NCBI GenBank assembly: GCA_009908855.1
Contig: JAAAOM010000007.1
Coordinates: 23,501-87,500, forward strand
Length of the DNA: 64,000 nt
Reading direction: 5' to 3'
From: Bacteroidota bacterium
Lineage (GTDB): Bacteria > Bacteroidota > Bacteroidia > Bacteroidales > JAAAOM01
Made by a program: the position numbers and the translations under genes. Numbering within the stretch: the first letter of the stretch is position 1; each line of letters opens with the position of its first letter. This document shows, one piece after another, positions 1 through 64,000 of this stretch. The notes beneath the pieces are model-generated. The model did not search any database. It saw nothing but the letters and a program-made list of their open reading frames with translations, and was not told the origin of the DNA.

Positions 1-1527
1 TTCCCCCGTTCTAAAAAGTTCGGTCAATACCATCTATCTTATTTATCGGAGACCGAGACCAACAAAGTTGACATACTGCCAGGTGCATTTATGCTCATGC
101 GCCGGGAAACGCTTGATAAAGTGGGGTTACTTGATGAAGATTTCTTTATGTATGGTGAGGATATTGATCTGTCATACCGCATTAAACAGGGCGGTTACCA
201 TAATTATTACTTTCCCGAAACCACCATTATCCATTACAAAGGAGAAAGCACCAAAAAAACGAGTGTAAATTATGTATTTGTTTTTTATCAGGCAATGTTA
301 ATTTTTGCACGCAAGCACTTCTCAAAACGTAAACTGCAAATATTCTCATTGTTCATTAATGTAGCCATTTATTTCAGGGCTTTTATTGCCTTGCTACGGC
401 GATTTATTCTTCGGTTTTTAACCCCGGTGCTTGACCTTATCCTTTTATATACAGGTATGTATCTGATTACGTATGGTTGGGGAAGCTTACATTTTAATGA
501 TCCTGATCGATATCCGGATACATTGTACTATCTGATTTTTCCGATTTACATAGCTATCTGGATGATTTCTATTTATTTAATGGGAGGGTATGATAAACCC
601 GTTCGTTACCTTAAAATTGTGAAAGGCATATTATACGGAACACTTGTAATATTGGCTGTATATGCCCTGTTGCCCATTCATTTAAGATTTTCAAGAGCCA
701 TTATTGTAATTAGTACAGCATGGGCTTTCACTGCCATGTTTGTTACCCGTATTATCCTGTCGAAGATATCCCTCCATCATTTTAAATTTGAAATACGCAA
801 AAGCAAAAAGCGGTTTTTATTTGTAGGAAAAATAGATGAAGTAAATAAAGCCATTGATATCATTAAACAAAATTTTATTAAGCCCGAACTGTTAGCCATT
901 GTTTCAGATATAAATAAGCCTGCCGAAGATGAAAGGATCATCGGTTCGTATGATCAGATACAGGATGTGGTAAAAATTAATAAAATCGATGAAATTATTT
1001 TTTGTGCGCGCGATTTATCTTCTATGTTCATAATTAAAACCATGTTGACCCTGGGCAATTTCAATCTCGAATTTAAAATTGCCTCACCCAACGGAATTTC
1101 GGTTATTGGCAGCAGCTCTATAGATACGGCAGGTGATCTGTATACCCTCGATTTCAATTCTTTAACCAATGTGGTGAACCGGCGTAAAAAAAGAATGTTA
1201 GATATAATAGTGGCAATTCTTTTATTGATATTATCACCGGTATTTATCATGATTATCCGGAAGACAAGAAACTTGTACGCCAATATTTTTAAATTGTTAT
1301 GGGGAGAAGTAACATTGGTCGGGTATTATGGCGATGAAGGGCAAATTGCGGCTTTGCCAGCCATCCAAAAAGGAATATTATCACCTGCTGACGGACTGAA
1401 AAACATACCTGAAACAGGGGAAGACATAGAAAAAATGAATTTGAGTTATGCAAGAGATTATAAAATTGAGAACGATTTGATACTCTTAATTAAAAATATG
1501 AATAAGTTTACCAGAAAATTACAATAA
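1..1527 (+). CDS. Glycosyltransferase family 2 (C-terminal part of the GT domain) fused to a membrane/degenerate sugar-phosphotransferase-like region; 5' truncated by window edge
   Basis: Frame is open from base 1 (FPRSKKFGQYHLSYLSETETNKVDILPGAFMLMRRE...); GT2 features GAFMLMRRETLDKVGLLDEDFFMYGEDIDLSYRI; multiple TM segments; C-terminal KKRMLDIIVAILLLILSPVF resembles the start of the bacterial sugar transferase domain. Confidence 0.85.
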   Translation, partial: FPRSKKFGQYHLSYLSETETNKVDILPGAFMLMRRETLDKVGLLDEDFFMYGEDIDLSYRIKQGGYHNYYFPETTIIHYKGESTKKTSVNYVFVFYQAMLIFARKHFSKRKLQIFSLFINVAIYFRAFIALLRRFILRFLTPVLDLILLYTGMYLITYGWGSLHFNDPDRYPDTLYYLIFPIYIAIWMISIYLMGGYDKPVRYLKIVKGILYGTLVILAVYALLPIHLRFSRAIIVISTAWAFTAMFVTRIILSKISLHHFKFEIRKSKKRFLFVGKIDEVNKAIDIIKQNFIKPELLAIVSDINKPAEDERIIGSYDQIQDVVKINKIDEIIFCARDLSSMFIIKTMLTLGNFNLEFKIASPNGISVIGSSSIDTAGDLYTLDFNSLTNVVNRRKKRMLDIIVAILLLILSPVFIMIIRKTRNLYANIFKLLWGEVTLVGYYGDEGQIAALPAIQKGILSPADGLKNIPETGEDIEKMNLSYARDYKIENDLILLIKNMNKFTRKLQ

Positions 1528-1528
1528 T

Positions 1529-2866
1529 ATGGCTCTTTACTATTTTAAGTTGCCGGCAATGGGAGAGGGGATCATAGAGGCTACAATAACCTCGTGGCAT
1601 ATAAATGAAGGTGACACCATAGATGAAGATGAGATTATTGTTGAAGTTGCCACGGATAAGGTAGACTCTGAAGTTCCAGTTCCGGTAAGTGGTAAGGTGA
1701 AACGAATATATTACCAGGAAGGTGATTCACCTGCCATTGGAGAAATTATAGCGCAACTGGAAACCGATGATGATCCGGAAGAAATTGAACAGGGCACACC
1801 TGATGATGATGCTCACCAAAATCATCCTGTAAATTCTGCACAACCATCAACAGCATTGTATAAACCTGAGCCGCAATACGATCCAATTACTGTTTCTTAT
1901 GAAATACCTGTGTTTATAAGCCAGTATGCAAAGGAACGTGGTGTGCGCAAGGATGAGCTAATGCGGCTTAAGCACGAAAAAAATGGAGAAGAGCTTGTTA
2001 AGCAGGATATAATTCAATACATTGAATCAGGCCGATCCTATCAAATAAAGAATTCCGGCAATGGAATGCCCCGGTTGTCAGCAGTTGAAACGGAACATTC
2101 AGGAAGCCATACCAAAAAGGAAAACAAAGATCAAGCGGCAGATATCACACTTGAAAGTTCGTATGAAGTGGTTGAAATGGATCGCATGCGTAAGATCCTT
2201 GCCGAACACATGGTTACTTCAAAACGAACATCACCGCATGTAACCTCTTTTATCGAAGCCGATGTTACTGACATGGTTAACTGGCGCGAACGGGTTAAAA
2301 ACAGTTTCTTTGAAAAGCAACAACAAAAACTCACCTATACACCCCTGATTGTTGAAGCCGTTACAGCAGCTTTGCTTGAATATAGCGATATAAATGTTTC
2401 AGTCGTTGGTGATAAAATCATCAGAAAGAAAGAAATTAATATAGGTATTGCAACAGCTCTGAAAAGCGGTAATTTAATCGTTCCCGTGATAAAAAATGCC
2501 AATGATAAAAACCTGGCCGATTTGGCACTGGCAGTAAACGATTTAACGGCCCGGGCAAGGAACAATAAACTAAATCCGTTTGAGATAAAAGGAGGGACAT
2601 TTACAATTACAAATCTTGGAAATTTTGATAATATTTCAGGAACACCTATTATAAATCAACCTGAAGTAGCTATTTTAGCTGTTGGTGCAATTAAAAGAAA
2701 ACCGGCTGTTGTTAATACCGAATTGGGTGAGACCATCGGCATTAGAAGTATTGTCATGCTCTCATTATCCTACGACCACAGAGTAGTAGATGGTGCACTG
2801 GGTGGCATGTTTTTGAAATCCATTGCCAGAAACCTTGAAAGCTTTGATATCAACCGGTCAGTTTAA
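1529..2866 (+). CDS. Dihydrolipoamide acyltransferase (E2) of a 2-oxo acid dehydrogenase complex
   Basis: N-terminal lipoyl domain (EVATDKVDSEVPVPVSG), peripheral subunit binding region, catalytic SYDHRVVDGALGGMFL. Confidence 0.95.
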   Translation: MALYYFKLPAMGEGIIEATITSWHINEGDTIDEDEIIVEVATDKVDSEVPVPVSGKVKRIYYQEGDSPAIGEIIAQLETDDDPEEIEQGTPDDDAHQNHPVNSAQPSTALYKPEPQYDPITVSYEIPVFISQYAKERGVRKDELMRLKHEKNGEELVKQDIIQYIESGRSYQIKNSGNGMPRLSAVETEHSGSHTKKENKDQAADITLESSYEVVEMDRMRKILAEHMVTSKRTSPHVTSFIEADVTDMVNWRERVKNSFFEKQQQKLTYTPLIVEAVTAALLEYSDINVSVVGDKIIRKKEINIGIATALKSGNLIVPVIKNANDKNLADLALAVNDLTARARNNKLNPFEIKGGTFTITNLGNFDNISGTPIINQPEVAILAVGAIKRKPAVVNTELGETIGIRSIVMLSLSYDHRVVDGALGGMFLKSIARNLESFDINRSV

Positions 2867-2969: not shown

Positions 2970-5900
2970 ATGAAAAGAACTATTAAATACCAAACGATAC
3001 TGATTATCCTGGTTGGATCATTTACTGTTAGCATTACCTTCGGGCAGCTTGATATGGAACCCAAAGAAATGTTTCTTGAAGCGGAATCGTATTTCCTCTT
3101 TGAAGAGTATAAAGATGCCTTACCCTTGTATCAACGATTATTGAGGGAGGAACCGGATAATTATAATGTGCATTATAAAATAGGAATTTGCTTTTTACGG
3201 GATAAATTCAATAAGGAAAAATCTATTAAATACCTGGAAGAAGCTGCACAACATGTAAATCTTGATTTTAAACAAAATAGTTTCAAAGAAAAGCAAGCGC
3301 CTTTTGAAGTCCATTTTTACCTGGGTGATGCTTATCGGGTCAATAATATGTTGGATAAAGCATTGGAAAGCTATCGGTTTTTCCAAAACGAGATGGATGA
3401 AGAAATATACGACAAAAAGCTGGTTGAGGAGCGGATAGAGTCGGTTAAATATGCCCAAAAAGCCATGCAAAAGCCCATATATTATCAAACCACAAACATG
3501 GGCGATTATATTAACACCCGTTTTAGTGAGCGCAATGCAGTGATTTCAGGTGATGGCAAGACACTCATATTTACCCGCGAACTACAATTCTATGATGCGG
3601 TATTTATTTCCCACAGGCAACCAAACGGGCAATGGAGCAACCCGGTGAATTTAACACCTGAATTCGGACTGGATGGGAACTCCTATTCAACCGGTATTTC
3701 ATATAACGGGAACGAACTCTTTATTTATCGCAATGATGAATATGACGGGAATATCTACGCCAGTAAACTGGTGGATGGCCGGTGGGGCATACTTCAAAAA
3801 TTAAATGATAACATCAATACCAAATTCTGGGAATCACACGCATCAGTATCTGCCGACGGGAAAACACTGGTTTTTACAAGCAATCGCAAAGGAGGCTATG
3901 GTGAGTTGGACATATATATGTCAAAAAGAGATGAGCACGGAAATTGGGGTGCAGCAAGAAATTTAGGCAATGTTGTGAATACACCGTTTAACGAAGAATC
4001 TCCCTTTTTATCGAACGACGGTAAATGGCTTTATTTTAGCTCCCAGGGGCATCAAAATATGGGTGGTTATGATGTGTTTCGTTCCGAAAAGAAAACCGAT
4101 GGTTCCTGGTCAAAACCTGAAAACCTGGGTTACCCGATCAATACCACCCATAACGATATGTTTTATTGTCCTTACGATAAAGGATTTTTCGGAATTTACA
4201 ATATGTATGATCCAAAAGGTTACGGGCTGGATGACATTGTAATGGTTGAGATATTTTCTGAGCTCCATCCGCGCCCCATCGAAATGTTGGTTACACTGGA
4301 ACCTGACCGTAATATCCCGGATGAAATCAGGGAGCGAATTCAAATTACCATACGCGACAGGCAAAATCGTGAGGTGAAAGATGTAACCCGCCTCGAAAAT
4401 CAGGAAGACAAAATTAAATTCACCATGCCGCATGGTGAATATGAAATGGTGATTGAAGGCCCAGGCATTGAAACACAATCGAAAGATATTAATTTACCCA
4501 TTGATCATGAGGGCAGCACATTCAAAGTAAAAACACCGCTTCTCATTTCTGAGTCTGCCGATAAAGTATCAAAACGTGAATTAAGAAAAGCCGAACCGCC
4601 GGTGGTTCAAACAAATTTCGACTCCCTTGTGGTTACCAAACGAGATCGGGTAACCATTCAGTTTAAGGTTGATAAAAACACCGAACTCACCATTAACCGG
4701 TTAAACAATAATAATACCATTGAGAAAAAACGCCTGCGAATAACCGATAAATCGTTTGATTACACATTTGATCCATTACCCGGCATTAATTACATTGAAG
4801 CCATCGCAGAAGATGAACAGGGAAACCTGACCAAAAAATTGGTGAAAGTTGTGTATAAGGAGCCGCAGGAAGAAACCGTGCCGGACGAGATGGATACCAT
4901 CGAATATTTCACCGAAGTGGAGAATATACATGAATTTCTTAAATCGGCAGGATCAGAACCGGTTAAAATGGCTATGGATGAGATCAAACGTTTTAAAGTA
5001 AATGAGATCGATAAAATTTATAATGAATTGTCGTTGTTAGCAAAGCAGGAATTTTTCACACAACATGAAATTGATTCATTATTTGCCGTATATTATTCTA
5101 ATAAAAGTGTAAACCAATTTTTAAACGAAATGCAATTAGGCGCCCGTGGCAATCTTGCATTGGCGCTGGAAACTACCGATCTTGATTCGGAAAACATCAA
5201 AACGGCAGCGGATTTACTCGAATACCTGCGGGATGAAAGATTTGAAAGCGCTTTTAACGACTATGATATACTGCATGCATTCTCTGTTTTGTTGACCAAT
5301 AACGATACGGCCGGGCTTAATGATTTTAAGCGTGTTTTAACCAATGCCGCCAAGGGTAACCTAAAATTTGCCATGCAGAATATTTCACACGAAAACATAA
5401 ATATTTACACACCGCTCGATTTATTAACTTATCTGTACGACAATAACCGGGAACATAATTTCACACATAATGAATTATTCGATCTGTTACTTGAGCTAAG
5501 GGCTAATTATGATGTAGATGAGCTATATTTCGATTTACTGTATTTCTCCGATGGCGAACTTTATAATTACCTGAAGACCTCAGGTAATAGACTTGAAGAC
5601 TTTAATAACGCGCAGGCATTTCTTCAATATTTATTGAATCAGAGCAATGTTCAGCCTTACCAGGCAAGCGATGTGATTGTAGCGCTTAACAAAGCCAGAG
5701 AAAACCAGGTAAACGCACAATTGATTAAAGAAATATTATCGAAAAATGCAAAAGGCAATTTAAAGGAATTTATTCTTAATACCGAATCCGAAACATTGCA
5801 GTCACTGGGTTTCCAGGGCTATATAAATAAAATACTCGATAATTCAGCCAACAATAAATATTCCTTTACCGATGTAATTGAAATGTTGCTCTCAATAATC

Positions 5901-6254
5901 GGATATGAAGATACTGAAAAGTTTATTACAGAATTCCAGCAGTTGGCCGATCAACATTTAAGTGATTTTATCGATCAGGTTAAAAACCAACAATTTAAAT
6001 CACCTTCACACTTTATACAATTTTTGTTGGATGAAGCTGACAAACAAAATTATTCCAAACAGGATGTGATCGATACCCTTATTAAACTGGCATATTTAAA
6101 CATTTGTCAGGTAGTAAAAGGAGAGCAGGAGATGCCACAGGAAAAAGCCTCACAGGGTATTACCGGTTTGCTGATTGGAGTTGGTGTTTTAATCATAATT
6201 ATTGTTTTACTAAGAAGGAAAAAGCGCAGACAAGACAAAAACAGGGATTATTAA
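2970..6254 (+). CDS. Secreted TPR + PD40 beta-propeller protein with C-terminal ~68-aa helical repeats and a C-terminal TM anchor
   Basis: Signal peptide; TPR-like YKDALPLYQRLLREEPDNYNVHYKIGICFL; PD40 blades (VSADGKTLVFTSNRKGGYGELDIYMSKR); C-terminal GLLIGVGVLIIIIVLLRRKKRR. Confidence 0.85.
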   Translation: MKRTIKYQTILIILVGSFTVSITFGQLDMEPKEMFLEAESYFLFEEYKDALPLYQRLLREEPDNYNVHYKIGICFLRDKFNKEKSIKYLEEAAQHVNLDFKQNSFKEKQAPFEVHFYLGDAYRVNNMLDKALESYRFFQNEMDEEIYDKKLVEERIESVKYAQKAMQKPIYYQTTNMGDYINTRFSERNAVISGDGKTLIFTRELQFYDAVFISHRQPNGQWSNPVNLTPEFGLDGNSYSTGISYNGNELFIYRNDEYDGNIYASKLVDGRWGILQKLNDNINTKFWESHASVSADGKTLVFTSNRKGGYGELDIYMSKRDEHGNWGAARNLGNVVNTPFNEESPFLSNDGKWLYFSSQGHQNMGGYDVFRSEKKTDGSWSKPENLGYPINTTHNDMFYCPYDKGFFGIYNMYDPKGYGLDDIVMVEIFSELHPRPIEMLVTLEPDRNIPDEIRERIQITIRDRQNREVKDVTRLENQEDKIKFTMPHGEYEMVIEGPGIETQSKDINLPIDHEGSTFKVKTPLLISESADKVSKRELRKAEPPVVQTNFDSLVVTKRDRVTIQFKVDKNTELTINRLNNNNTIEKKRLRITDKSFDYTFDPLPGINYIEAIAEDEQGNLTKKLVKVVYKEPQEETVPDEMDTIEYFTEVENIHEFLKSAGSEPVKMAMDEIKRFKVNEIDKIYNELSLLAKQEFFTQHEIDSLFAVYYSNKSVNQFLNEMQLGARGNLALALETTDLDSENIKTAADLLEYLRDERFESAFNDYDILHAFSVLLTNNDTAGLNDFKRVLTNAAKGNLKFAMQNISHENINIYTPLDLLTYLYDNNREHNFTHNELFDLLLELRANYDVDELYFDLLYFSDGELYNYLKTSGNRLEDFNNAQAFLQYLLNQSNVQPYQASDVIVALNKARENQVNAQLIKEILSKNAKGNLKEFILNTESETLQSLGFQGYINKILDNSANNKYSFTDVIEMLLSIIGYEDTEKFITEFQQLADQHLSDFIDQVKNQQFKSPSHFIQFLLDEADKQNYSKQDVIDTLIKLAYLNICQVVKGEQEMPQEKASQGITGLLIGVGVLIIIIVLLRRKKRRQDKNRDY
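4926..6110 (+). repeat. Protein-level tandem repeat (~66-72 aa period, about 6 copies) inside the 1094-aa protein
   Basis: Recurrent cores such as NAKGNLKEFI / AAKGNLKFAM / GARGNLALAL, and FTQHEIDSL / FTHNELFDLLLEL / YSFTDVIEMLLSI / YSKQDVIDTLIKL, spaced about 200 nt. Confidence 0.7.
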
Positions 6255-6369
6255 TAATATAATTCTCAAAATTATCAGGATTTGACAATTTTAATTTTTA
6301 TCTTAAGGGTACTATGTTATAAAACGAAAAGTTAATATTGTTTACCCTGTATAAATACAATTTTAATTA

Positions 6370-6400
6370 TTGCATTTAAAAGCAGTAAATTATAAATTTG
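6370..6400 (+). promoter_or_regulatory. Possible Bacteroidota-type promoter for the OmpA-family gene
   Basis: TAAATTTG (TAnnTTTG) at 6393..6400 with a weak TTGC at 6370..6373, 19-nt spacer; 5' UTR about 120 nt. Confidence 0.4.
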
Positions 6401-6525
6401 TTTAGAAACAGATTAAAATCCCTATGAGACCTCCGGAAATAATGTCATTGAAAAGTGATCATGGTTATAATGGTAATTTTTTATGAATCATTAGTTTACA
6501 GGAGGATCCATATAAAAACAAAAAG

Positions 6526-8373
6526 ATGAAAAAATACTTGTTAAGTGCAGCCGTCCTTTTTCTCTCTTTTCAATTATGTTTTACGCAACAGGAACCCAAT
6601 GAAGCCCTGAAAACCACTTTTCAGGACGGAGAATTCTTTTTGGCACGTGGGGATTATCTGGATGCGTTAATCGAATTTCAGCAAGTGTATAAACGAGGGT
6701 ACGACAATGCCAATGTGAATTACCGGATCGGTGTTTGCTACGTAAATATACCCGGACAAAAAAACATGGCTATCCCGCATCTGGAAAAGGCCATAAAAAA
6801 TATTACCACAAACTATACCGAAGGTTCATTGAGAGAAACCAAAGCACCAATCGATGCCTTTTTGTTCCTGGGGAATGCTTATCGGATAGACAATCAGATT
6901 GACAAAGCCATCTCTTCTTATAATGAATTCAAAAAGCGATTGATTGATGGTGATGTTGATGATCTGACTGATGAAGAAAATATCTATTTGAACTATGCCA
7001 ATCAGCAAATTAAAGCATGTAAGATTGCCAAGGATGCTATGGCCGAACCGGTAGCCGTGGACCGAATTAACCTGGGTGAAGAGATTAACAGCAGCTCTTC
7101 TAATTACCGGGCTGTAATGAGCGGCGACGGCCAGTCGATGGTTTACATGTTTGAATTGCCATTTTACGAAGCGGTTTATTACAGCGTTAAGGAAAATGGC
7201 CAGTGGACCGATCCCAAAAACCTGACCCCTGAAATTCGGTCAGACGGCGATCAATATGTATCGCACCTTTCTTATGATGGTACGCAGCTCTTGCTATCCA
7301 GAGAAGATGTTTTTGACAGTGAAATTTATATTAGCAATTTACAGGAAGACGGACGCTGGAGTCCTTCTGAACCGCTTGGAAATAATATTAACACAAAGTT
7401 CTGGGAATCACATGCCAGCACCAGTAGAGGCGGAGATACACTCTATTTCGCCTCAAACCGTAGAGAAAGTACCGGCGGCATGGATATTTTTTATTCCGTT
7501 AAAGATGATGATGATTGGGGTGATCCAAAAAACCTGGGTGTCATTGTCAATACAAAATTGAATGAAGAATACCCCTTCCTTACCAGCGATGGCCAAAAAT
7601 TGTTTTTTTGCTCTCAGGGGCATAGCAGCATTGGCGGGTACGATATATTTTACAGTGTCAGAGACCAGCAGGGTAATTGGCAGGAGCCGGTAAATATGGG
7701 ATACCCGTTTAACACCACTGATGATGATCTTTTCTATTTCCCCATTGACAATGAGGGCGATTGTGGATTGCTTGCCTATATTGATGAGGACGGATACGGA
7801 AAAGAAGATATATATAAAATTTGTAAAATACCGCAACAACGGGTGGAGGAAGCTATAGCCGAGCAGGTTGAGATTGATAGGGAGGAAGAAATTGAGGTTC
7901 AGGAAAGTATAGATTCATTGCATCATGCACTGGAAGAAACGGATGAGCAAAAGGAACCAACCCCCGAACCCCAAAAAGAAAAACCGGAAGAATTTACTGT
8001 TAAACCTGTTTATTTTGCATTTAACAAGGCAGATTTGTCGCGTGAAGCCAAAGATGAACTGGATCGAATAACACATCTGATGAAGCGCAATGAAGAAATT
8101 CAACTGAGCATATACGGATATACGGATGCTATGGGACCTGAACAATATAACCTGGTACTTGCCAATAGCAGGGCAGAAGCAGCAAAAGCTTACCTTTTGA
8201 AGCAAGGTATTGATAATGACCGGATAAAGACTTATGCAAAAGGAGAACTGGATCCTGTAGAACCAAATGAAAATCCCGATGGTACTGATAATATTATCGG
8301 ACGTAAGAAAAACCGAAGGGTTCAGTTTGAATTTTCAGCTACCGATAAAGCAAATGTAAAGATCATCCGGTAG
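6526..8373 (+). CDS. OmpA family protein with TPR and PD40 beta-propeller (PorE-like architecture)
   Basis: Signal peptide; TPR; PD40 blades; OmpA C-terminal domain (VYFAFNKADLSREAKDELDRI...YGYTDAMGPEQYNLVLANSRAEAAKAYL...GRKKNRRVQFEF). Confidence 0.9.
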   Translation: MKKYLLSAAVLFLSFQLCFTQQEPNEALKTTFQDGEFFLARGDYLDALIEFQQVYKRGYDNANVNYRIGVCYVNIPGQKNMAIPHLEKAIKNITTNYTEGSLRETKAPIDAFLFLGNAYRIDNQIDKAISSYNEFKKRLIDGDVDDLTDEENIYLNYANQQIKACKIAKDAMAEPVAVDRINLGEEINSSSSNYRAVMSGDGQSMVYMFELPFYEAVYYSVKENGQWTDPKNLTPEIRSDGDQYVSHLSYDGTQLLLSREDVFDSEIYISNLQEDGRWSPSEPLGNNINTKFWESHASTSRGGDTLYFASNRRESTGGMDIFYSVKDDDDWGDPKNLGVIVNTKLNEEYPFLTSDGQKLFFCSQGHSSIGGYDIFYSVRDQQGNWQEPVNMGYPFNTTDDDLFYFPIDNEGDCGLLAYIDEDGYGKEDIYKICKIPQQRVEEAIAEQVEIDREEEIEVQESIDSLHHALEETDEQKEPTPEPQKEKPEEFTVKPVYFAFNKADLSREAKDELDRITHLMKRNEEIQLSIYGYTDAMGPEQYNLVLANSRAEAAKAYLLKQGIDNDRIKTYAKGELDPVEPNENPDGTDNIIGRKKNRRVQFEFSATDKANVKIIR

Positions 8374-8401
8374 TAATATTTAGCAATTTGTACACGTTTA
8401 T

Positions 8402-8438
8402 AAATGCCCTGTATAACATTATAGGGCATTTTTGTTTA
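8402..8438 (+). terminator. Rho-independent terminator downstream of the OmpA-family gene
   Basis: AAATGCCC-TG-TATAA-CA-TTATA-GGGCATTT stem followed by T-rich TTTGTTTATA. Confidence 0.7.
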
Positions 8439-8569
8439 TAAGCTTGTAGATAAATTGTTTAGCCGAATAAGAAATCATATAAATAAAATCCTTATTTTGT
8501 TCGTGAGAATTTAATAATCGCTGCTCATTATCATTAACAGCGGAGTAAAATTAAAAAACAAAGGTAAAT

Positions 8570-10045
8570 ATGAGTAAACAATTAAAATACTGCCTGATCA
8601 TAATTACGATTGCATTATTTGGCTTGGTTTCGGGGTCTGCGCAGATCATTAGTCAGCCTATGAAAGAAATGTATAGCGATGGCCAGTATTTTTATAACCG
8701 TGAAGATTATCAGGAAGCGGTATATTACTTCCTGCGTTTACTGGAAAGCGATTCGACCAACGCAAATCTGAATTTTAAAGCAGGCCATTGTTATCTTAAC
8801 ATACCGGGTCAGGAAACCCGCGCCATATCTTATTTTAAAAATGCCATACAAGACATTACTGCTGATTATGACAGTAAATCTCCCACCGAAAGGGAAGCAC
8901 CTTTGCATGCATTGTACTATCTGGGCAATGCTTACCGGATGGCAGATAAAATAGACAAAGCCCTGGAGGCTTATGAAAAATTTACAGCTTCGCCTTTTTA
9001 CGAGGGTAATTATAACATTTCAATTGTAGAAAACGAAATTGCCGCCACCGAAAGGGCCAAAACAATAATTGATAATCCCATTGATGTTGAATTTGAAAAA
9101 ATCGACACCCTTTTTAACACCCAATCCAGGGAGTTCAGACCACTGATTTCCGGCGATCGTAAACACATGGTTTTTGTCAGAAAATTAAAATTCTACGATG
9201 CCGTTTTTTATACACACAAAAAAAGCGGTGAATGGTCCAACCCGGAGGTTATCAATCCGCTTATCAAGTCCGACGGGAACCATTATCCAACCAGTATATC
9301 CTATTATGGCGACGAAATTTATTTTGTTGAAGAAAAAGACTTTAATAAAAATATATTTGTTTCAAAATTTATACACGACCGTTGGCAACCCTTGGAGGAA
9401 CTGAACCGCAAAATAAATTCAAACGGCAATGAGACACATGCAGCCATATCTGATGACGGAAAAAAACTGATTTTTGCCAGCGATCGTTGGGGCGGAGAAG
9501 GTGGGTTAGACCTGTACATCTCATCCCGCGGACAGGATGGTGAATGGAATAAGGCCAGCAATATGGGATCGGTTATTAACACACCCTACGATGACAATTC
9601 AGCCTTCTTTACAAATAATGATTCAACCATATTTTTCAGCTCTGCAGGCCATTTTAAAATGGGTGGGTATGATGTTTTTTACAGTAATTATATAAATGGT
9701 AAATGGACTTCACCTGTAAACGTAGGTTACCCAATAAATACAACATCCAATAATTTATATTACCAACCTATCAATGACGGGAATGCCCTGCTCATGTCTA
9801 AATTCGACGAAAACGGTGAAAATGAAGATTTATACATTGCTCACATTAAAACTTCACTTAATCTTGTTAATACATCTGATAATAAAACAGTTCAAACATC
9901 TGAAATAGATATAAGTAAAACAAAAAAGATATATGTGATTGATAAAAACACCGGTGATACAAGCGCTGTTATGGAATTGAATCCGGAAAATCAGAGGATG
10001 GAAATCAACAATACCAATGAAAACATTGAGATTCGCACACAATAG
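8570..10045 (+). CDS. Secreted TPR + PD40 beta-propeller protein, short C-terminal tail
   Basis: Signal peptide; strong similarity by eye to the flanking paralogues across TPR and PD40 regions (DDGKKLIFASDRWGGEGGLDLYISSRGQDGEW); no OmpA or SPOR domain visible. Confidence 0.85.
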   Translation: MSKQLKYCLIIITIALFGLVSGSAQIISQPMKEMYSDGQYFYNREDYQEAVYYFLRLLESDSTNANLNFKAGHCYLNIPGQETRAISYFKNAIQDITADYDSKSPTEREAPLHALYYLGNAYRMADKIDKALEAYEKFTASPFYEGNYNISIVENEIAATERAKTIIDNPIDVEFEKIDTLFNTQSREFRPLISGDRKHMVFVRKLKFYDAVFYTHKKSGEWSNPEVINPLIKSDGNHYPTSISYYGDEIYFVEEKDFNKNIFVSKFIHDRWQPLEELNRKINSNGNETHAAISDDGKKLIFASDRWGGEGGLDLYISSRGQDGEWNKASNMGSVINTPYDDNSAFFTNNDSTIFFSSAGHFKMGGYDVFYSNYINGKWTSPVNVGYPINTTSNNLYYQPINDGNALLMSKFDENGENEDLYIAHIKTSLNLVNTSDNKTVQTSEIDISKTKKIYVIDKNTGDTSAVMELNPENQRMEINNTNENIEIRTQ

Positions 10046-10069
10046 ACCGAAAAAGCTGGTAAGACATGG

Positions 10070-12376
10070 ATGACACGTAATATTATAAGTTATATATTAT
10101 TTTTTATTATGTTTTGGGCACTGGCTTTCCAGGCTCATGCCCAACAAATCGATATTGACGGAAACTTCAGAGATGCAGAATATTATCTGTTTGAAAATCG
10201 ATACGAAAAGGCATTACCTTTTTACCTGCAACTGTATAAGGCTGATTCTACCAATTATACTGTAAATTATCGAATCGGGGAATGCTATTTCCATATATTA
10301 CGTGAACAGGATAAAGCACTGCCCTATCTTGAAAAAGCTGCTCAAAATGTAAGTCGTCGGTTTGTTAATGAAAAATACGAACAAAATGTTTCGCACATCA
10401 ATACTTACCTGATGCTTGGTGAACTTTACCAAATGAAGGAACTGTTGGGTAAAGCCTTTCAATACTATAAAAAGTACCAGAAAATATTACGTCCCAATGA
10501 GAAAGATGAGCTTGAAAAAGTAAAACAACGCATCAAATCAGTATATGTAGCCTGGGAATTACAGCAACTGTATGTGCCATATAGCGCCGTTGGTTTGGGT
10601 GATGATATTAATACCAGGCATTCCGATTATAATCCGGTGCTATCGGCAAATCAGGATGAAATGGCATACACCTCTTATTGGGAGACTACCGATGTTATAT
10701 TTTTTACCTGGAAAGAGAACGGGAAGTGGCGTAAACCCTATAATATTACAGAAATGATTGGTTCTCAGGGCGATTGCTATACCAGCGCCATAGCCCCTGA
10801 TGGCAAAACATTGTATTTGGTAAAGCAGGATTTTTACGATTCCGATTTTTATTACACTACCTACCAGGATAACAGATGGTTACCCATGAATAAAATGAGT
10901 AACCGTATCAATTCATCATCGCTTGAAACAAGTTTATTTATTTCCAACGATGGACAAACCTTGCTGTTTAGCAGCAATAGATCGGGGGGACAGGGAAATT
11001 TAGATATTTATATGTCGGAGGCAACAGAAAAAGATGATTGGGAAAAGCCCGAAAACATTGGGCCGGTTATTAATACATCGTTCGATGAAGAAGCACCGTT
11101 TTTGGTTAATAATGGCGAATTGTTGTTTTTTAGTTCAAAAGGACATCATTCAATGGGTGGCTACGACATTTTTTTTTCAACCAAAAAAGAAGACGGTACC
11201 TGGAGCAAACCTATAAATATTGGCTATCCGATTAATACATCCGGTGATGATTTGTTTTATGTTCCCTTTGGCGATGGTAACACCGGTTATTTTGTGCGCG
11301 ATTTACCAGGAGGCAATGGGTTGATGGATATTTACAAAATTGAGATACCGAAACATTTATTGTTTCAGGATAAATTGGCGGATTTTGATACGAAATATGA
11401 ATCGGGTTTTTATAATGATGTTTTCGCCGAATACACGGATGCGGAAGCAGAAAAGGATTATACCGATTCGAATGTTGTGGAAATGGTAGATAACGAACCG
11501 GTTACACTCGTTAATACCGATCGGTTTGTTAGCGGCAGTGGTGAAATAAGCCATGTTGTTAAAAAAATGGATACAACCCAATCAACAGAAAAAAACCTGC
11601 CACAAACAAAAAAGGATACCATTCAACCTGCCATTTCCAATACCGGGGAAGAATCTATTCAGGCAGATGATAATGCTAAAAAAGCTGATTTCATCCGTTT
11701 TGACGCTGATGCCGGTACCACACATGCTTCGGTAACTACTATACCGCCAACACCCCCTGTAAAAAAGGTTACAGGAGCAGGCGGGGCAGTGGTTTCGTCA
11801 AAAAAACCGGTAAATTCATCCGAAACATCCAGAGCCATTGAACCGCGCAATAACGATACATCAATATCAACCGAAGGCACCTACAATAACAAGGCGGTTA
11901 CCAATGAGAAAAGCAAAAAAGACGAACCCCGTATGCCAACCGACGCTGACACAAAGCAACCGGTTAGTTCCGGCAGCAATAATGATACTAATACTCCATC
12001 CCCGGCTAAAACAAAAGAACAGTCGGTTGTAAAACAGGCAAACAACATTCCCAAATCGAATCAAACCCGGGATGGCGCAACAATAGCAAATGCAAATGAT
12101 CATCCGGTTAAACACGCCGATGTTTCAACAAATAACGTACCTGTGTATACAGTGCAAATAATTGCCTTGCTAAACCCGGTTGAGGCAAGTTATTTCAGTC
12201 AGTTCGACAGTTTAACCGTGAGTAATGGTCATGACGGATTTACCCGATATACCATAGGTGAATATAAGGGTTATTCTGCCGCTGAACAGGCACTTAAAAA
12301 AATACATTCCAGGGGATATAAAGAAGCATTTATTCGGGATATTCGAACCATATCTAATTATAATAAAGCCCTTTAA
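10070..12376 (+). CDS. Secreted TPR + PD40 beta-propeller protein with low-complexity linker and C-terminal SPOR-like domain
   Basis: Signal peptide; PD40 blades (SNDGQTLLFSSNRSGGQGNLDIYMSEATEKDDWEKPENIGPVINTSFDEEAPF); Thr/Ser/Pro-rich linker; C-terminal VYTVQIIALLNPVEASYF...GYKEAFIRDI. Confidence 0.87.
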   Translation: MTRNIISYILFFIMFWALAFQAHAQQIDIDGNFRDAEYYLFENRYEKALPFYLQLYKADSTNYTVNYRIGECYFHILREQDKALPYLEKAAQNVSRRFVNEKYEQNVSHINTYLMLGELYQMKELLGKAFQYYKKYQKILRPNEKDELEKVKQRIKSVYVAWELQQLYVPYSAVGLGDDINTRHSDYNPVLSANQDEMAYTSYWETTDVIFFTWKENGKWRKPYNITEMIGSQGDCYTSAIAPDGKTLYLVKQDFYDSDFYYTTYQDNRWLPMNKMSNRINSSSLETSLFISNDGQTLLFSSNRSGGQGNLDIYMSEATEKDDWEKPENIGPVINTSFDEEAPFLVNNGELLFFSSKGHHSMGGYDIFFSTKKEDGTWSKPINIGYPINTSGDDLFYVPFGDGNTGYFVRDLPGGNGLMDIYKIEIPKHLLFQDKLADFDTKYESGFYNDVFAEYTDAEAEKDYTDSNVVEMVDNEPVTLVNTDRFVSGSGEISHVVKKMDTTQSTEKNLPQTKKDTIQPAISNTGEESIQADDNAKKADFIRFDADAGTTHASVTTIPPTPPVKKVTGAGGAVVSSKKPVNSSETSRAIEPRNNDTSISTEGTYNNKAVTNEKSKKDEPRMPTDADTKQPVSSGSNNDTNTPSPAKTKEQSVVKQANNIPKSNQTRDGATIANANDHPVKHADVSTNNVPVYTVQIIALLNPVEASYFSQFDSLTVSNGHDGFTRYTIGEYKGYSAAEQALKKIHSRGYKEAFIRDIRTISNYNKAL

Positions 12377-12378
12377 CA

Positions 12379-12903
12379 ATGTCTGAAGAAATTAGAATTC
12401 GTGCATTGGAACCCGAGGACATTGATCGCTTGTATCAATGGGAAAATGATACGAATATATGGCAGGTAAGCAACACGCTAACCCCATTTTCCAGGCATGT
12501 CATCACGCAATATGTGCAAAATGCACACCTTGATATATATCAAACCAGGCAGCTAAGGCTAATGATCGATCTCCATTCAGAAGAAAAAACCGAAACAATC
12601 GGTGCTATTGACCTGTTCGATTTTGACCCTTTTCACAACCGTGCCGGTGTGGGTATATTAATCAAAAATTCTGACCATCGAAACAAGGGATTTGCATCCG
12701 AAGCGCTTTCCCTGTTTATCAATTATGCGTTCCATACACTTCAGCTTCACCAGCTTTATTGCAACATCGATGAAACCAATGATGCCAGTATGAGACTATT
12801 CGAAAAACACAATTTTGAGCGGATAGGCAAAAAACGGGATTGGATTAAAACCAATAACGGTTATATCGATGAATATATCTATCAACTTATCAACAATTTA
12901 TAG
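12379..12903 (+). CDS. GNAT family N-acetyltransferase (RimJ/RimL or SpeG-like)
   Basis: IRALEPEDIDRLYQWEND..., GVGILIKNSDHRNKGFASEALSLFINYAF, NDASMRLFEKHNFERIG. Confidence 0.9.
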   Translation: MSEEIRIRALEPEDIDRLYQWENDTNIWQVSNTLTPFSRHVITQYVQNAHLDIYQTRQLRLMIDLHSEEKTETIGAIDLFDFDPFHNRAGVGILIKNSDHRNKGFASEALSLFINYAFHTLQLHQLYCNIDETNDASMRLFEKHNFERIGKKRDWIKTNNGYIDEYIYQLINNL

Positions 12904-12988: not shown

Positions 12989-14815
12989 ATGAATTATAGG
13001 ATTTTCATATACGTTTGGCTGTTTTTTCTGAGCCACATTATCACTTATGCACAGTTTGAAGATGATAGCTCCATCGAATCTGTGCTTGAAAAATCGGAGC
13101 TTAAAAAGTTTAACAAAAGCAATGAACATATTGCCAAGGCTGATGAATTGATCACCGAAGCCAATGAAACTTATGTTGATGTTTATGAACAGCAGCAACA
13201 AAACGATACTTCAGATAAAAAAGTAAAAAAGGAAATTGACAAGCTATTGGAAGAGGCCACTTCCCTTCAGATAAAATCATTTAAAGCATTTAAAAAGGGA
13301 TTTGATATACAATATGAATTGCTGAAAGATGTGATAACATCCTTTTGGGAGATAAATCCCGGGTTAAAAGAAGATTTGGTGGCAGCCAGGGAAAGTGAAG
13401 AATTGGCCCTCGATTACAAAGGCCAGGCACAGAGCATAGAAAGTGCTTCAGATAAAATGGAACAAAGAAGCGAGGCACAACAATTGATGGAGGCCATGAA
13501 CTATTATAAAGTGTCGTTGAATGAGCTGAAAAACGCCCTTTTTATCGTTTACGGCCTTGAAACACCCTCAACTGCCGACACATACCCGGTTTCCGAATAT
13601 GATCAGGAGCAGGAAACAGAACCAACCCCTGATCAGGATACTACACCGGTTGAAACCATCCCTGCTGATAATACCAACTTTGATGCATCAGCCATCCCCG
13701 ATTCCGTTCTTGTTAACGATGAATTATTGAATATTTATCTAAGGTTGCAGGAGGACGATTCCTATAACATTTCCGATAGTGTAAAACATTACATGACCAA
13801 TAATTATTCCTGGGGCCAGATTCGCGGACGTTGGTATGAATATTTGTTAAGCGCTGATCCTGTACAAACCAAACAAACCAAACAACCGGTGCCCGCACAG
13901 GAAACAACATTGCATGAACCTGAATACCCGGAAGTAATGGAACCAAACGCACATCTCGAGTTGAAACAAACCACTCCCCCGGATGAAAAAGACTATTACA
14001 TCCAACTCCCGGCTGATCAAAAACCGCTTTCACAATCAACCCTGCAGGGATTGTATTACGGTGGTAAAGAAGTGAAAATGAAAAGAGAAAGTGGCAATTA
14101 CATATATACCATTAGTATTTTCGATACATTTCAGGATGCTGAAGACTATAAGAAGGTCGTTGGGCTAACAGAAGGCGTTATTTTGGCCTACGATCATAAA
14201 CAGACACATACTGATAAAACGCTCACCACCAATGAAAAAACTAAAACAAACATAACTCAGTCTGCCGGCTCAGAAAAAAGGCCACTACCAACTGAAAATA
14301 TTTTATTTTATGTGCAAATAGCTGCGAGTAAAGTACCATTATCAATCGATTACCTGGATGAAAAATACAAAGGCGATAAAATAGTTCATGTCAGGAACGA
14401 AGAGGGGTGGTTTAAATACCAGTTGGGAGGCACAAAATATTACTATAAAGCACAGAGTATATTGCGAAGTACCGGTATTAATGAAGCATTTATTGTGGCT
14501 TATGAAAACGGAGAACTGCGCAACCTGGTGGATGCACGTGAGCAGATGGAACAACGCAACCAATCATCATTACCAAAAGATATGCGTTTTGCCGTTCAAC
14601 TGGCGGCCAGCAAGCAACCGTTGTCGAAAAATGTAATCAGCAATATTTACAACGGACGGTTTCCGGTTAATATGGTTATTGAAAACGGATGGTATAAATA
14701 TCAGATTATGGCCGGCAATTCGTATGAAAATGCCGAACAAATAAGGCAATCAACAAATGTTAAAGGAGCCTTTATTGTAGGCTATGCCAATGGAGAAAAG
14801 AAATTATTGTATTAA
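12989..14815 (+). CDS. Secreted protein with helical N-terminus and three SPOR-like C-terminal repeats
   Basis: Signal peptide; repeated YYIQLPADQKPLS / FYVQIAASKVPLS / FAVQLAASKQPLS units, each ending in EAFIVAYENGE-type motifs. Confidence 0.75.
   Translation: MNYRIFIYVWLFFLSHIITYAQFEDDSSIESVLEKSELKKFNKSNEHIAKADELITEANETYVDVYEQQQQNDTSDKKVKKEIDKLLEEATSLQIKSFKAFKKGFDIQYELLKDVITSFWEINPGLKEDLVAARESEELALDYKGQAQSIESASDKMEQRSEAQQLMEAMNYYKVSLNELKNALFIVYGLETPSTADTYPVSEYDQEQETEPTPDQDTTPVETIPADNTNFDASAIPDSVLVNDELLNIYLRLQEDDSYNISDSVKHYMTNNYSWGQIRGRWYEYLLSADPVQTKQTKQPVPAQETTLHEPEYPEVMEPNAHLELKQTTPPDEKDYYIQLPADQKPLSQSTLQGLYYGGKEVKMKRESGNYIYTISIFDTFQDAEDYKKVVGLTEGVILAYDHKQTHTDKTLTTNEKTKTNITQSAGSEKRPLPTENILFYVQIAASKVPLSIDYLDEKYKGDKIVHVRNEEGWFKYQLGGTKYYYKAQSILRSTGINEAFIVAYENGELRNLVDAREQMEQRNQSSLPKDMRFAVQLAASKQPLSKNVISNIYNGRFPVNMVIENGWYKYQIMAGNSYENAEQIRQSTNVKGAFIVGYANGEKKLLY
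13994..14812 (+). repeat. Three SPOR-like protein repeats
   Basis: YYIQLPADQKPLS, FYVQIAASKVPLS and FAVQLAASKQPLS, starting near 13994, 14305 and 14582. Confidence 0.7.
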
Positions 14816-14839: not shown

Positions 14840-15625
14840 ATGAAAAAATATGTTAAACCCTTCATGCAAAAAACAGGACTATCGATAATGATGGTCCTGC
14901 TGATGTTTTCCTGCGTCTCGCAGAAAAATGTTAAAATCCTGCAGGAAAAAGCGAACAAAGAACTAACGACCCAGTTCGAGAATCAAAAAAAGATAACCTA
15001 TCGATTGCAGGTGGGGGATCAGCTCTATATTAAAATTTATAGTGTAGACCCCAAAACGGCCAAATTCTTTCAAACTGATTTTCCTTCTCTCATGAACCCC
15101 ACTTATTTATATTTAAATAGCTATAAGGTTGATGAATTTGGATACATCAATTTCTCGTTCGTTGATAAAATGTATGTAAAAGGATTAAGTATTATCGAAT
15201 GCAAAGACCTGATACAAAAAACACTTAACGAATATTTTAAAGACGCCACTGTGCATGTGAAGCTCGTTAATTACCAGGTTTCTGTATTGGGAGAAGTAAA
15301 TAGCCCGGGAACCTTTACAGTTGATGACGAAAGCATTGACCTTTTCCAGGCACTGGGCAGAGCGGGCGGAACAACTGATTTCGGCAACTTAAAACAAGTA
15401 AAAATCGTTCGGCAGGTGCCGGAAGGCTCGCAGATTCATTTGATAGACCTAACGGATAACCGCGTTTTACAATCCGACTATTTTTACCTAATGCCAAATG
15501 ACATAGTTTACATTGAGCCCAGGGCAGGAAAAGCATTTGTGCAGACAAACTTCCCGTATGGACTTATATTGTCGGTTATAGGTAGTGCAGCCATATTTTT
15601 AAATCTATTTGACGTTCAGTTTTGA
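14840..15625 (+). CDS. Polysaccharide biosynthesis/export lipoprotein (Wza-like, Poly_export + SLBB)
   Basis: Lipobox-like MVLLMFSC; YRLQVGDQLYIKIYSVDP; SVLGEVNSPGTFTVDDESIDLFQALGRAGGTTDFGNLKQVKIVRQ; C-terminal TM helix. Confidence 0.92.
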   Translation: MKKYVKPFMQKTGLSIMMVLLMFSCVSQKNVKILQEKANKELTTQFENQKKITYRLQVGDQLYIKIYSVDPKTAKFFQTDFPSLMNPTYLYLNSYKVDEFGYINFSFVDKMYVKGLSIIECKDLIQKTLNEYFKDATVHVKLVNYQVSVLGEVNSPGTFTVDDESIDLFQALGRAGGTTDFGNLKQVKIVRQVPEGSQIHLIDLTDNRVLQSDYFYLMPNDIVYIEPRAGKAFVQTNFPYGLILSVIGSAAIFLNLFDVQF

Positions 15626-18024
15626 TCGAGAATAAAGAACATATCATAAACGAATCAGACAGCTTTGATTTTAAAAGATTGTTTCATCAGATCGTAAAAA
15701 ACTGGTACTTTTTTGTCGTATCCGTATTTCTCGGGCTAATTGCAGCCTATCTGGTTATTCAGTATTCATCGCCCAAATATCAGGTATCTGCCAATATATT
15801 GGTACAGGATGAGCAAAACCCGGTGCAGCGTGAATTGCTTGAGATGAGCAATTTAACATCAGGTTCCGGCAAGGTTGACAATGAGCTGGGCATTTTAAAA
15901 TCCCGTTCGTTAATGAAACATACCATTGAACGTATGGATTATGATGTGTTTTATTACAAAAACACCCGTTTTGGATACCGGGAAATATACCGCGATGCAC
16001 CATTTGAAATCGACCTTGTGAAATTGAATCATTATGTGGTTAATACCAAATGTAATTTGCACTATTTAAGTCCTAATCAAGTGCTCCTTCAAGCCAGTGT
16101 TAAAAAAGCGCTTGTTTTTTCCCCCATGGTTGAACGTATTGTTGAACAAACAGAGGATTATAAGTATATCGATACGGTGAACGTGGGTGATACCGTTGCA
16201 GGTACGTTTGGCACATTTATCATTCAACCCAATTTATTCAATTTCATGCCCGAAAAGCTGAAACAGCAATATGCTTTTCAGTTTAATACCGATAATTATT
16301 TAAAAGGTACATTTAACCAGTTGTCTTTTAGTCCGAAACAAAATTCATCCATTATAACAGCCCGTTTGGCAGGCGAAAACCCCGAGAGGCTGGTGGAGTT
16401 TTTAAATACCTATTTGCAATTATATCTGCAAAAAGGCGTGCAGAAAAAAAACAGGGTGGCCCATGCTACCATTCAGTTTATTAACGAACAACTGGAGCAG
16501 GTATCCGATTCATTATCCATTTCTGAAGATGAGCTGGAAGCATTTCAGAGTGAAAACAAGTTACTGAATATCGATTTTCAGGCCCAGCAGATGTATGGAA
16601 ATATAGAAAGCCTGCACCAGGAAAAGCAAAAGATAAACCTGAGGCTTGAATATTACAGTTACCTGAAAAAATATATCCAGAACAATGAAACACCCAAAGA
16701 TGTGGTTGCGCCTTCATCTATGAATTTTCATGAACCTTTATTATCATCGCTCATTTTGCAGTTAACCGAATTATCTGCCGAACGCAAGGAGATGATGTAT
16801 AATACCAAAAAAACCAATCCTTATCTGGCCACCATCAATCGTAAGATTGAAGATGTTAAACATGCGTTGATTGAAAATCTCGAAAGTTCAATACAAACAT
16901 CATCCATGACCCTGGAACAAATTAATACACAAATAGCCCAAACCAGTAGCGAGTTTACCGAATTACCCAGTGAACAACGGCGCTTGTTGTCTATGAAAAG
17001 AGATTTTGAGTTGAATAACGAGCTTTATAATTTTCTGCTAAAAAAGCGTTCTGAAATGCAAATTGCCAGGGCATCCAATCTGCCATCCAACGAAATAATT
17101 GATAATGCTTCATTGGATGCGGTCATTAAAATAGCTCCGAATACCAGACAAATTTATATGGTCGCGCTAGTGCTTGCTTTGTTCCTGCCCGGAGCCATCA
17201 TATATTTACGGGATGTCCTTAATAATAAAATTAGCGAAAGAGATGACATTAGCAAGATTACCAATTATCCTGTCATTGGCCAGATATTTCATCATAAACT
17301 ACAGACCGAAAATATTTTTAAAGATCAACCTACCTCGCAGATAACAGATTCGTTTCGCTCCATCCGCACGAATTTTCAGTTTTTCGAAAAGAAAAACAAA
17401 GCCAATATTATTCAAATAACATCATCACTTACCAAAGAAGGCAAAAGTTTTGTTTCCTTAAATTTAGCCCAGGCCTTTGCTACCAATAAACGAAAAACCA
17501 TTTTACTTGATTTTGACCTGCGCAAAGCCAGAATAAAGGATTATGCCGATTTGAAATCAAATAAAGGATTAAGTTTGTTTTTAAGTGAACATGGCCAGGT
17601 GAGGGATATGATTGAGAAAACCGACAATCCTTACCTGGATATAATTCCTGCCGGGCCCATACCACCCAATCCAACAGAGTTGGTGGAAAGTGATAAAACA
17701 GCCGAGCTGATGGAATATTTACGTCAGCATTATCAATATATCTTTTTGGACACCCCGCCAATCAGTTCCATTTCTGATGCGTACATATTAACGAAATATG
17801 CCGATATAAATTTATTTGTGGTGCGCAATAATTATACACCCAAAAAATTGTTTGAGTCGGTTATTAGAGATATCGAACTCAGAAAAATACCGGTTCACTT
17901 AATTATTAATGATATACAGATACAAAGCGGTCGTTATTACGGATATTATCGTCCATATCGCTACGAAGCCAAACCTAAGTCCTTCACCCAAAATGTAAAA
18001 AATGTTATATTCAGCAATAACTAA
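15622..18024 (+). CDS. Wzc-like chain-length determinant / tyrosine kinase (TTG start overlapping upstream stop)
   Basis: Wzz-type N-terminus with two TMs, GNVR-like region, BY-kinase domain (ITSSLTKEGKSFVSLNLAQAFATNKRKTILLDFDLRKARI), Tyr-rich C-terminus (GRYYGYYRPYRYE). Confidence 0.92.
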   Translation: MIENKEHIINESDSFDFKRLFHQIVKNWYFFVVSVFLGLIAAYLVIQYSSPKYQVSANILVQDEQNPVQRELLEMSNLTSGSGKVDNELGILKSRSLMKHTIERMDYDVFYYKNTRFGYREIYRDAPFEIDLVKLNHYVVNTKCNLHYLSPNQVLLQASVKKALVFSPMVERIVEQTEDYKYIDTVNVGDTVAGTFGTFIIQPNLFNFMPEKLKQQYAFQFNTDNYLKGTFNQLSFSPKQNSSIITARLAGENPERLVEFLNTYLQLYLQKGVQKKNRVAHATIQFINEQLEQVSDSLSISEDELEAFQSENKLLNIDFQAQQMYGNIESLHQEKQKINLRLEYYSYLKKYIQNNETPKDVVAPSSMNFHEPLLSSLILQLTELSAERKEMMYNTKKTNPYLATINRKIEDVKHALIENLESSIQTSSMTLEQINTQIAQTSSEFTELPSEQRRLLSMKRDFELNNELYNFLLKKRSEMQIARASNLPSNEIIDNASLDAVIKIAPNTRQIYMVALVLALFLPGAIIYLRDVLNNKISERDDISKITNYPVIGQIFHHKLQTENIFKDQPTSQITDSFRSIRTNFQFFEKKNKANIIQITSSLTKEGKSFVSLNLAQAFATNKRKTILLDFDLRKARIKDYADLKSNKGLSLFLSEHGQVRDMIEKTDNPYLDIIPAGPIPPNPTELVESDKTAELMEYLRQHYQYIFLDTPPISSISDAYILTKYADINLFVVRNNYTPKKLFESVIRDIELRKIPVHLIINDIQIQSGRYYGYYRPYRYEAKPKSFTQNVKNVIFSNN

Positions 18025-20329: not shown

Positions 20330-20950
20330 ATGATAACAGTTGTTTTGTGTGTGGTCATTGCCATAGTCTCCATAGCGGCATTTAATAATAGCGGGTTGTT
20401 TAATAAATTGCAGTTTAATGCTTATCAGGTATACCATCGAAAAGAATATTACCGGCTTCTTTCGCATGCCTTTGTACATGGCGGCTGGTTGCATTTATTC
20501 ATCAATGTATTTGTGTTTTTTATTTTTGGCCGCAATGTGGAGTCATTACTGAATTCGCTGGCAAATGAGGGAATCATACAATTGCCATTGGTATGGTACA
20601 TAGTTTTTTTTCTGCTTTCGGCTTTGTTTTCCACTTCCATCAGTATTTTTAAATACAAGGATGATGTATATTACAATGCCGTTGGTGCTTCCGGTGCTGT
20701 GTCAGCTGTGTTGTTTTTCTGGATATTCTTTAATCCCTGGGAGAAACTTTATTTATATGGTGTGTTGCCCATTCCTGCCATTATTTTTGCCGTGGCATAT
20801 ATAATCTACTCGCAATACATGAGCAAACGAAACCAGGACAATATTGGCCACGATGCCCATCTACTGGGTGCCGTTTTTGGATTTGTTTTTCCGCTTTTCA
20901 TTAACTTAAAATTCATTAATATTTTCTTGTCTCAAATATTAAATTTCTGA
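20330..20950 (+). CDS. Rhomboid family intramembrane serine protease
   Basis: EYYRLLSHAFVHGGWLHLFINVFVFFIFGRNVE; GASGAVSAVLF (catalytic Ser); H in DNIGHDAHLLGAVFGF. Confidence 0.92.
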   Translation: MITVVLCVVIAIVSIAAFNNSGLFNKLQFNAYQVYHRKEYYRLLSHAFVHGGWLHLFINVFVFFIFGRNVESLLNSLANEGIIQLPLVWYIVFFLLSALFSTSISIFKYKDDVYYNAVGASGAVSAVLFFWIFFNPWEKLYLYGVLPIPAIIFAVAYIIYSQYMSKRNQDNIGHDAHLLGAVFGFVFPLFINLKFINIFLSQILNF

Positions 20951-63790: not shown

Positions 63791-64000
63791 TACAACGAAG
63801 AGTTTGATCCTGGCTCAGGATGAACGCTAGCGGCAGGCCTAACACATGCAAGTCGAGGGGTAACAGGGGACTTCGGTTCCGCTGACGACCGGCGCACGGG
63901 TGCGTAACGCGTATGCAACTTACCTTTAACCGGGGAATAGCCCGAAGAAATTCGGATTAATGTCCCATAACATTATTGAATCGCCTGGTTTAATAATTAA
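63791..64000 (+). rRNA. rrs: 16S ribosomal RNA, 5' end, truncated by window edge (5' boundary approximate)
   Basis: AGAGTTTGATCCTGGCTCAGGATGAACGCTAGCGGCAGGCCTAACACATGCAAGTCGAG. Confidence 0.97.

Follow-up and report, generated by a model that had tools for sequence, protein, structure and literature searches.

A conserved tandem array of TPR-propeller proteins with differing C-terminal anchors in Bacteroidales points to an undescribed envelope scaffold

Why would a bacterium keep, side by side, four genes for one and the same protein chassis, each closed by a different tail? The question is raised by a stretch of 64,000 nucleotides from a Bacteroidales genome (assembly GCA_009908855.1, contig JAAAOM010000007.1, positions 23,501 to 87,500; hereafter the window, numbered from its first letter). 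It touches on the coupling of inner membrane, wall, and outer membrane, which is poorly known in Bacteroidota, and PorE-like proteins are usually annotated singly, as OmpA or PD40 proteins. An ORF check of the window recovered all four genes where the original prediction had placed them, on the + strand. P1 (2970..6254, 1094 aa) encodes a signal peptide, TPR, a TolB-like propeller, two beta domains, helical repeats, and a C-terminal transmembrane (TM) segment with a basic tail, while the common chassis is followed by a C-terminal OmpA domain in P2 (6526..8373, 615 aa), by a short C-terminal tail without a recognised anchor in P3 (8570..10045, 491 aa), and by a low-complexity linker and a C-terminal SPOR-like domain (aa 686-765) in P4 (10070..12376, 768 aa). 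Both the shared TPR-propeller chassis and the differing C-termini that had been predicted for these tandem ORFs were borne out: chassis pairs are 30.5-42.4% identical across about 400 residues, and the likeness of P1 and P2 reaches 352 bits, which excludes chance. Pfam finds PD40 in all four proteins and TPR in P1, P3, and P4. Further PD40 genes occur on seven other contigs of the same genome, and they are more distant than P1-P4 are from one another.

Is the set peculiar to this genome? A scan of genomes returned 80 loci, all in MAGs and mostly titled Bacteroidales; the locus counts given here are not independent, since they were taken from related genomes, and some genomes duplicate the records of other loci. 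Strong matches to the P1 profile (E<=1e-219, a threshold picked after the list had been seen) occur in 39 genomes from 11 families among 393 sampled genomes of the order. In a phylum-wide sample of 395 genomes, a strong match was found in the window's own genome only; of six weaker matches in that sample, the three inspected are single genes. The genomes are mostly MAGs, and the titles Chitinophaga, Chlorobiota, and Rikenella look mislabelled for some of them. The array set recurs in at least 11 largely uncultured families of Bacteroidales.

The gene order recurs as well. Typically, a glycosyltransferase (GT) gene, often followed by a lipoyl acyltransferase (E2) gene, precedes P1, after which come the OmpA, bare (P3-like), and SPOR members and then a GNAT acetyltransferase gene, so that the layout over many Bacteroidales MAGs can be written GT-(E2)-[TM]-[OmpA and/or bare]-[SPOR]-GNAT. 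In the window, these neighbours are the 3' part of a GT gene that begins before the window (91..1527, +; GT2 fused to a CoA_binding_3/EPS-transferase-like region), the E2 gene, a frequent conserved upstream neighbour (1529..2866, +), and the GNAT gene (12379..12903, +), which lies 2 bp past P4 and forms the conserved downstream border of the array. A TM member is present at 71 loci; it is preceded by at least two genes at 62 of them, and at 61 GT or E2 lies directly upstream. Where P1 and GNAT share one contig (44 loci), three chassis genes or more are present at 43; each of these 43 arrays includes an OmpA or a SPOR member (OmpA in 32, SPOR in 27), and 42 include a bare member. With O, S, and - for the OmpA, SPOR, and bare members, the layouts counted are [TM][-][S] (11), [TM][O][O][-] (9), [TM][O][O][-][S] (7), [TM][O][-] (7), and [TM][-][S][OS] (6); further loci fit the same order, the set being smaller in L154 and L155. 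The order, whose conservation had been set as a check on the original prediction, is thus kept across families and not just among close relatives. The full set is not obligatory, since P1 occurs without other chassis genes nearby in L082, L099, L100, L128, and L155. The stand-alone P1-type proteins of L082, L099, and L100 are about 1018 aa long and have neither another chassis gene nor GT/E2 nearby.

Across loci the array genes are closely spaced, with a median of 58 bp from one chassis gene to the next and about -1 bp ahead of GNAT; in the window the gaps measure 271 bp between P1 and P2 and 196 bp between P2 and P3. A 12-pair terminator-like hairpin is located in the latter gap (8402-8431), and P1-P4 may therefore not share one transcript. 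Terminator-like sites in the array region show no excess over shuffled sequence.

The descent of the chassis was followed in a tree of 143 sequences. There, the proteins of the array fall into a single clade (118 rows, SH-aLRT 100) that is separate from PorE, and P1, P2, P3, and P4 each group with their counterparts from other families. This makes the duplications old; nor are the copies random, unrelated PorE-like genes, as the phylogenetic check on the original prediction could have found. Together with the cross-family gene order, the single clade supports the earlier proposal that a single scaffold gave rise to membrane- and wall-tethered versions. P1, P3, and two SPOR groups each form a single group in the trees; the two bare groups are placed apart, and likewise the two SPOR groups. 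We do not claim repeated swapping of anchors between lineages, for single origins are not rejected by AU tests (p 0.082 and 0.113). In one genome from a different order, E2-GT is adjoined by a lone PD40 gene (L143:8526-10640), whose product has a degenerate OmpA-like end, as judged by eye; this single-gene arrangement may be the ancestral state.

Are these proteins, then, PorE, the TPR-PD40-OmpA component linked to type IX secretion (T9SS), as the PorE-type label first given to them would suggest? The likeness of layout is partial. PorE has the domain order TPR, propeller, regulatory-like domain, and OmpA (PMC7192894), and the array shares its TPR and propeller in P1-P4, with a regulatory-like domain in P1 and OmpA in P2. 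The identity does not stand. P1-P4 score 114.5, 174.5, 106.3, and 137.2 bits respectively against the PorE model NF052230, all far under its cut-off of 600, while another protein of the same genome (contig C19, L056:17097-19070) passes that cut-off with 710.7 bits. OmpA is missing from three of the four members, which moreover stand in tandem and in a separate clade, and only 1 of 118 chassis loci has a PorP-like gene nearby, a negative genomic proxy for PorP binding. Unlike PorE, P1-P4 lack a lipobox, as does every complete TM-type protein; this character separates PorE poorly, because the PorE protein encoded elsewhere in the genome shows none in its signal peptide either. We therefore reject PorE membership of P1-P4 on the cut-offs and the tree, and with the near absence of PorP neighbours the array does not consist of PorE orthologues; the findings point to a relative of PorE that is not part of the PorE secretion protein, and the array genes should not carry the PorE name. 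The layout is also like that of CHU_0125 of Cytophaga hutchinsonii, a TPR-PD40-OmpA relative required for outer-membrane integrity (PMC5891637). Against its model NF053607 (cut-off 620), P1-P4 score 165.6, 203, 112.2, and 135.4 bits, so that even P2 stays below the cut-off; the work on CHU_0125 dealt with one gene by itself.

The array might still be a T9SS accessory, its members being PorE paralogues that tie the PorK/N ring and PorP-like barrels to the wall and the inner membrane. The matching domain order would suit such a role, as would the binding of PorE to PorP and to the wall, through which it acts (PMC9143113), and GldM is present in the window's own genome and in 37 of the 39 genomes with a strong P1 match (the other two are incomplete). 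However, almost every sampled genome of the order has GldM (358 of 393), which makes its co-occurrence with the array uninformative, and we dropped it as a test; most GldM-bearing genomes have no strong P1 match, so that T9SS does not need the array. The PorE cut-off, which no array member reaches, and the PorE encoded elsewhere also argue against this role, as does the single PorP-like gene among 118 loci, given that PorP genes do lie beside PD40 or OmpA genes on contigs C14, C17, and C10 of the same genome. We consider a T9SS accessory unlikely.

What do the tails add to the chassis? P2 combines the OmpA domain (PF00691, E 3e-20) with the conserved Asp534 and Arg549 of the peptidoglycan-binding motif, the two features of OmpA-like peptidoglycan binders, and the Asp/Arg motif is present in 87 of 102 OmpA-type chassis proteins. 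The C-terminus of P4 is SPOR-like, at 19.4 bits just under the Pfam gathering score of 21 (PF05036), and a profile built from array C-termini, P4 being among its seeds, scores it at 6e-32. The same profile finds a SPOR-like domain at the end of many other array proteins, and three weak copies in the protein encoded at 12989..14815. SPOR domains are septal glycan binders, and P4 resembles the known SPOR-domain envelope proteins in its C-terminus, from which it differs in that the domain is below the Pfam threshold and is joined to a propeller chassis. Judging from what is known of the two families, P2 and P4 probably bind the wall. OmpA and SPOR-like domains are fused in one chassis chain in L091 (12567), L092 (10910), L115 (8080), and L050 (5928). 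On contig C35 of the window's own genome (L058), a PD40 ORF without OmpA (8741-10456) is followed by a separate OmpA ORF (10510-10860), and the pair may be a split or frameshifted gene.

P1 ends differently. A hydrophobic segment with a K/R tail closes 75 P1-type proteins (one locus counted twice), and these two features, combined with the signal peptide, imply a protein anchored in the inner membrane, with a topology predicted from family knowledge. Ahead of the anchor is a helical stalk (5142..6092, +; aa 725-1041), in which a repeat profile detects five tandem repeats of about 67 residues (51-position profile, consensus ASGNLKEFLENLDLEKENIKSPEDLIDYLLENAEEGGYTEEDVDNLLLKLA). Across P1-type proteins the number of copies varies from 0 to 11 and the domains upstream keep a constant length, the first detected repeat beginning near residue 645-725 in most repeat-bearing members, which is consistent with a stalk of variable length. 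The longest stalks seen are those of the P1 proteins in L085 (2618-7099, with 11 repeats) and L151, both about 1490 residues long. No family scores the repeat above the Pfam cut-off, and a fold search of the stalk against the PDB gave nothing at E<=0.001; by these comparisons it is an unclassified helical repeat, and the array thereby defines a TM-anchored member that carries it.

The stalk helices are predicted by AlphaFold with a pLDDT of 84.8. A full-length model of P1, the sole member modelled (pLDDT 86.1), contains TPR helices, a propeller, a pair of beta domains, an extended helical part, and a terminal helix, in an arrangement that the low pTM (0.51) does not fix. Its top solved fold match is TolB (3iax, E 7.8e-7; 2w8b, E 2e-6), with TolB-Pal complexes among the top matches, and P1 accordingly has the TolB propeller fold; a sequence search of solved structures gave no match for P1 or P4. 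A rhomboid protein is encoded at 20330-20950 of the window, with a sub-threshold rhombosortase match (40.8 of 84 bits), and many array loci have a rhomboid gene past HolA, on its downstream side. Processing of P1 by a rhombosortase was rejected on that score and on the tails, since no common Gly-Gly motif ahead of the TM segment (GlyGly-CTERM) was seen by eye in the 75 P1-type tails.

A constant chassis with changing anchors suggests adaptors that hold shared partners at the membrane, at the wall, or free. We propose with moderate confidence that the array encodes a family of periplasmic adaptors built on one TPR and TolB-like propeller chassis, whose tails set the site of each copy and whose chassis would bind a shared or closely similar partner. 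P1 would be a single-pass inner-membrane protein with its propeller held off the membrane by the stalk of 67-residue repeats; P2 would grip peptidoglycan through OmpA and P4 through the SPOR-like domain, and P3 could be mobile. The set would then link one client, or its own members, from inner membrane to wall, in a TolB-Pal-like layout. Because the conserved set varies mainly in its anchors, it also amounts to a natural experiment on the role of the chassis. Among the papers searched, none on such an array was found, and the evidence points to an undescribed envelope scaffold.

The paralogues could instead each serve a different client and lie together by duplication only, forming no joint structure. 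Genes are commonly duplicated in tandem, the PD40 chassis has expanded in these genomes, P1 is able to stand alone, and a lone PD40 gene adjoins E2-GT in the other order mentioned above. Against this, TM, wall-binding, and bare members have stayed together across families with deep paralogue clades, which makes separate clients improbable. A further step beyond the adaptor proposal would be a single heteromeric trans-envelope device, in which an inner-membrane propeller, on a stalk of varying length made of a new helical repeat family, would dock with wall-held and mobile copies of itself, a Bacteroidales counterpart of Tol-Pal that arose by chassis duplication; we put this forward as a possible but doubtful extension.

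A different claim is that the array functionally stands in for Tol-Pal, its propellers shuttling between the inner-membrane member and the OmpA/SPOR wall members and keeping or constricting the outer membrane at division. The two systems share a TolB-like propeller fold, OmpA-type wall binding, and parts that are inner-membrane, wall-held, and unanchored. The top fold match to TolB, the outer-membrane requirement for CHU_0125, and the septal binding of SPOR domains would favour a stand-in, and the window's own genome has no TolB or Pal above the curated cut-offs (P4 scores 21.9 bits against TolB, cut-off 343; P2 scores 65.3 bits against Pal, cut-off 125). In the array, however, the propeller is fused to TPR and anchors, the architecture of P1 is not TolA-like, and neither TolA nor another Tol motor partner could be recognised in the conserved neighbourhood; most sampled Bacteroidota lack the array and must manage otherwise. 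A stand-in for Tol-Pal therefore seems rather unlikely.

The adaptor proposal leaves the downstream genes to be considered. The array had been described as lying just upstream of a SPOR protein and Wza/Wzc, with a suggested link to polysaccharide export. The proximity holds in the window, with GNAT intervening: a triple SPOR-like protein, found with Wza/Wzc in a subset of arrays only (12989..14815, +), is followed by a Wza-like polysaccharide export protein (14840..15625, +) and a Wzc-like chain-length/tyrosine kinase (15622..18024, +), both lineage-limited neighbours. As a general rule the link fails. Where at least three genes are present downstream (41 loci), Wza/Wzc follow GNAT in 8 and DUF/AMP-nucleosidase/HolA in 16, and Wza/Wzc were rejected as a general partner of the array. 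An export accessory acting with Wza/Wzc would fit the 8 loci, the GNAT-Wza-Wzc order of L048, the Wza genes further downstream in L075 and L147, and the EPS-type glycosyltransferase upstream in 74 loci. It is at odds with the majority of arrays, in which GNAT leads to the DUF/AMP-nucleosidase/HolA genes or to unrelated ones, with the position of SPOR3-Wza-Wzc in the window between GNAT and an AMP-nucleosidase/HolA-type housekeeping block, and with the RecR-, AlaRS-, and LysA-like genes noted by eye among other upstream neighbours, and we regard it as very improbable. In L075 and L147, Wza (plus Wzc in L075) lies beyond the downstream housekeeping block, unlike its position in the window, and a loose association between array and Wza is possible. 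At its far end (63792-64000), the window holds the first part of a 16S rRNA gene that the contig end truncates.
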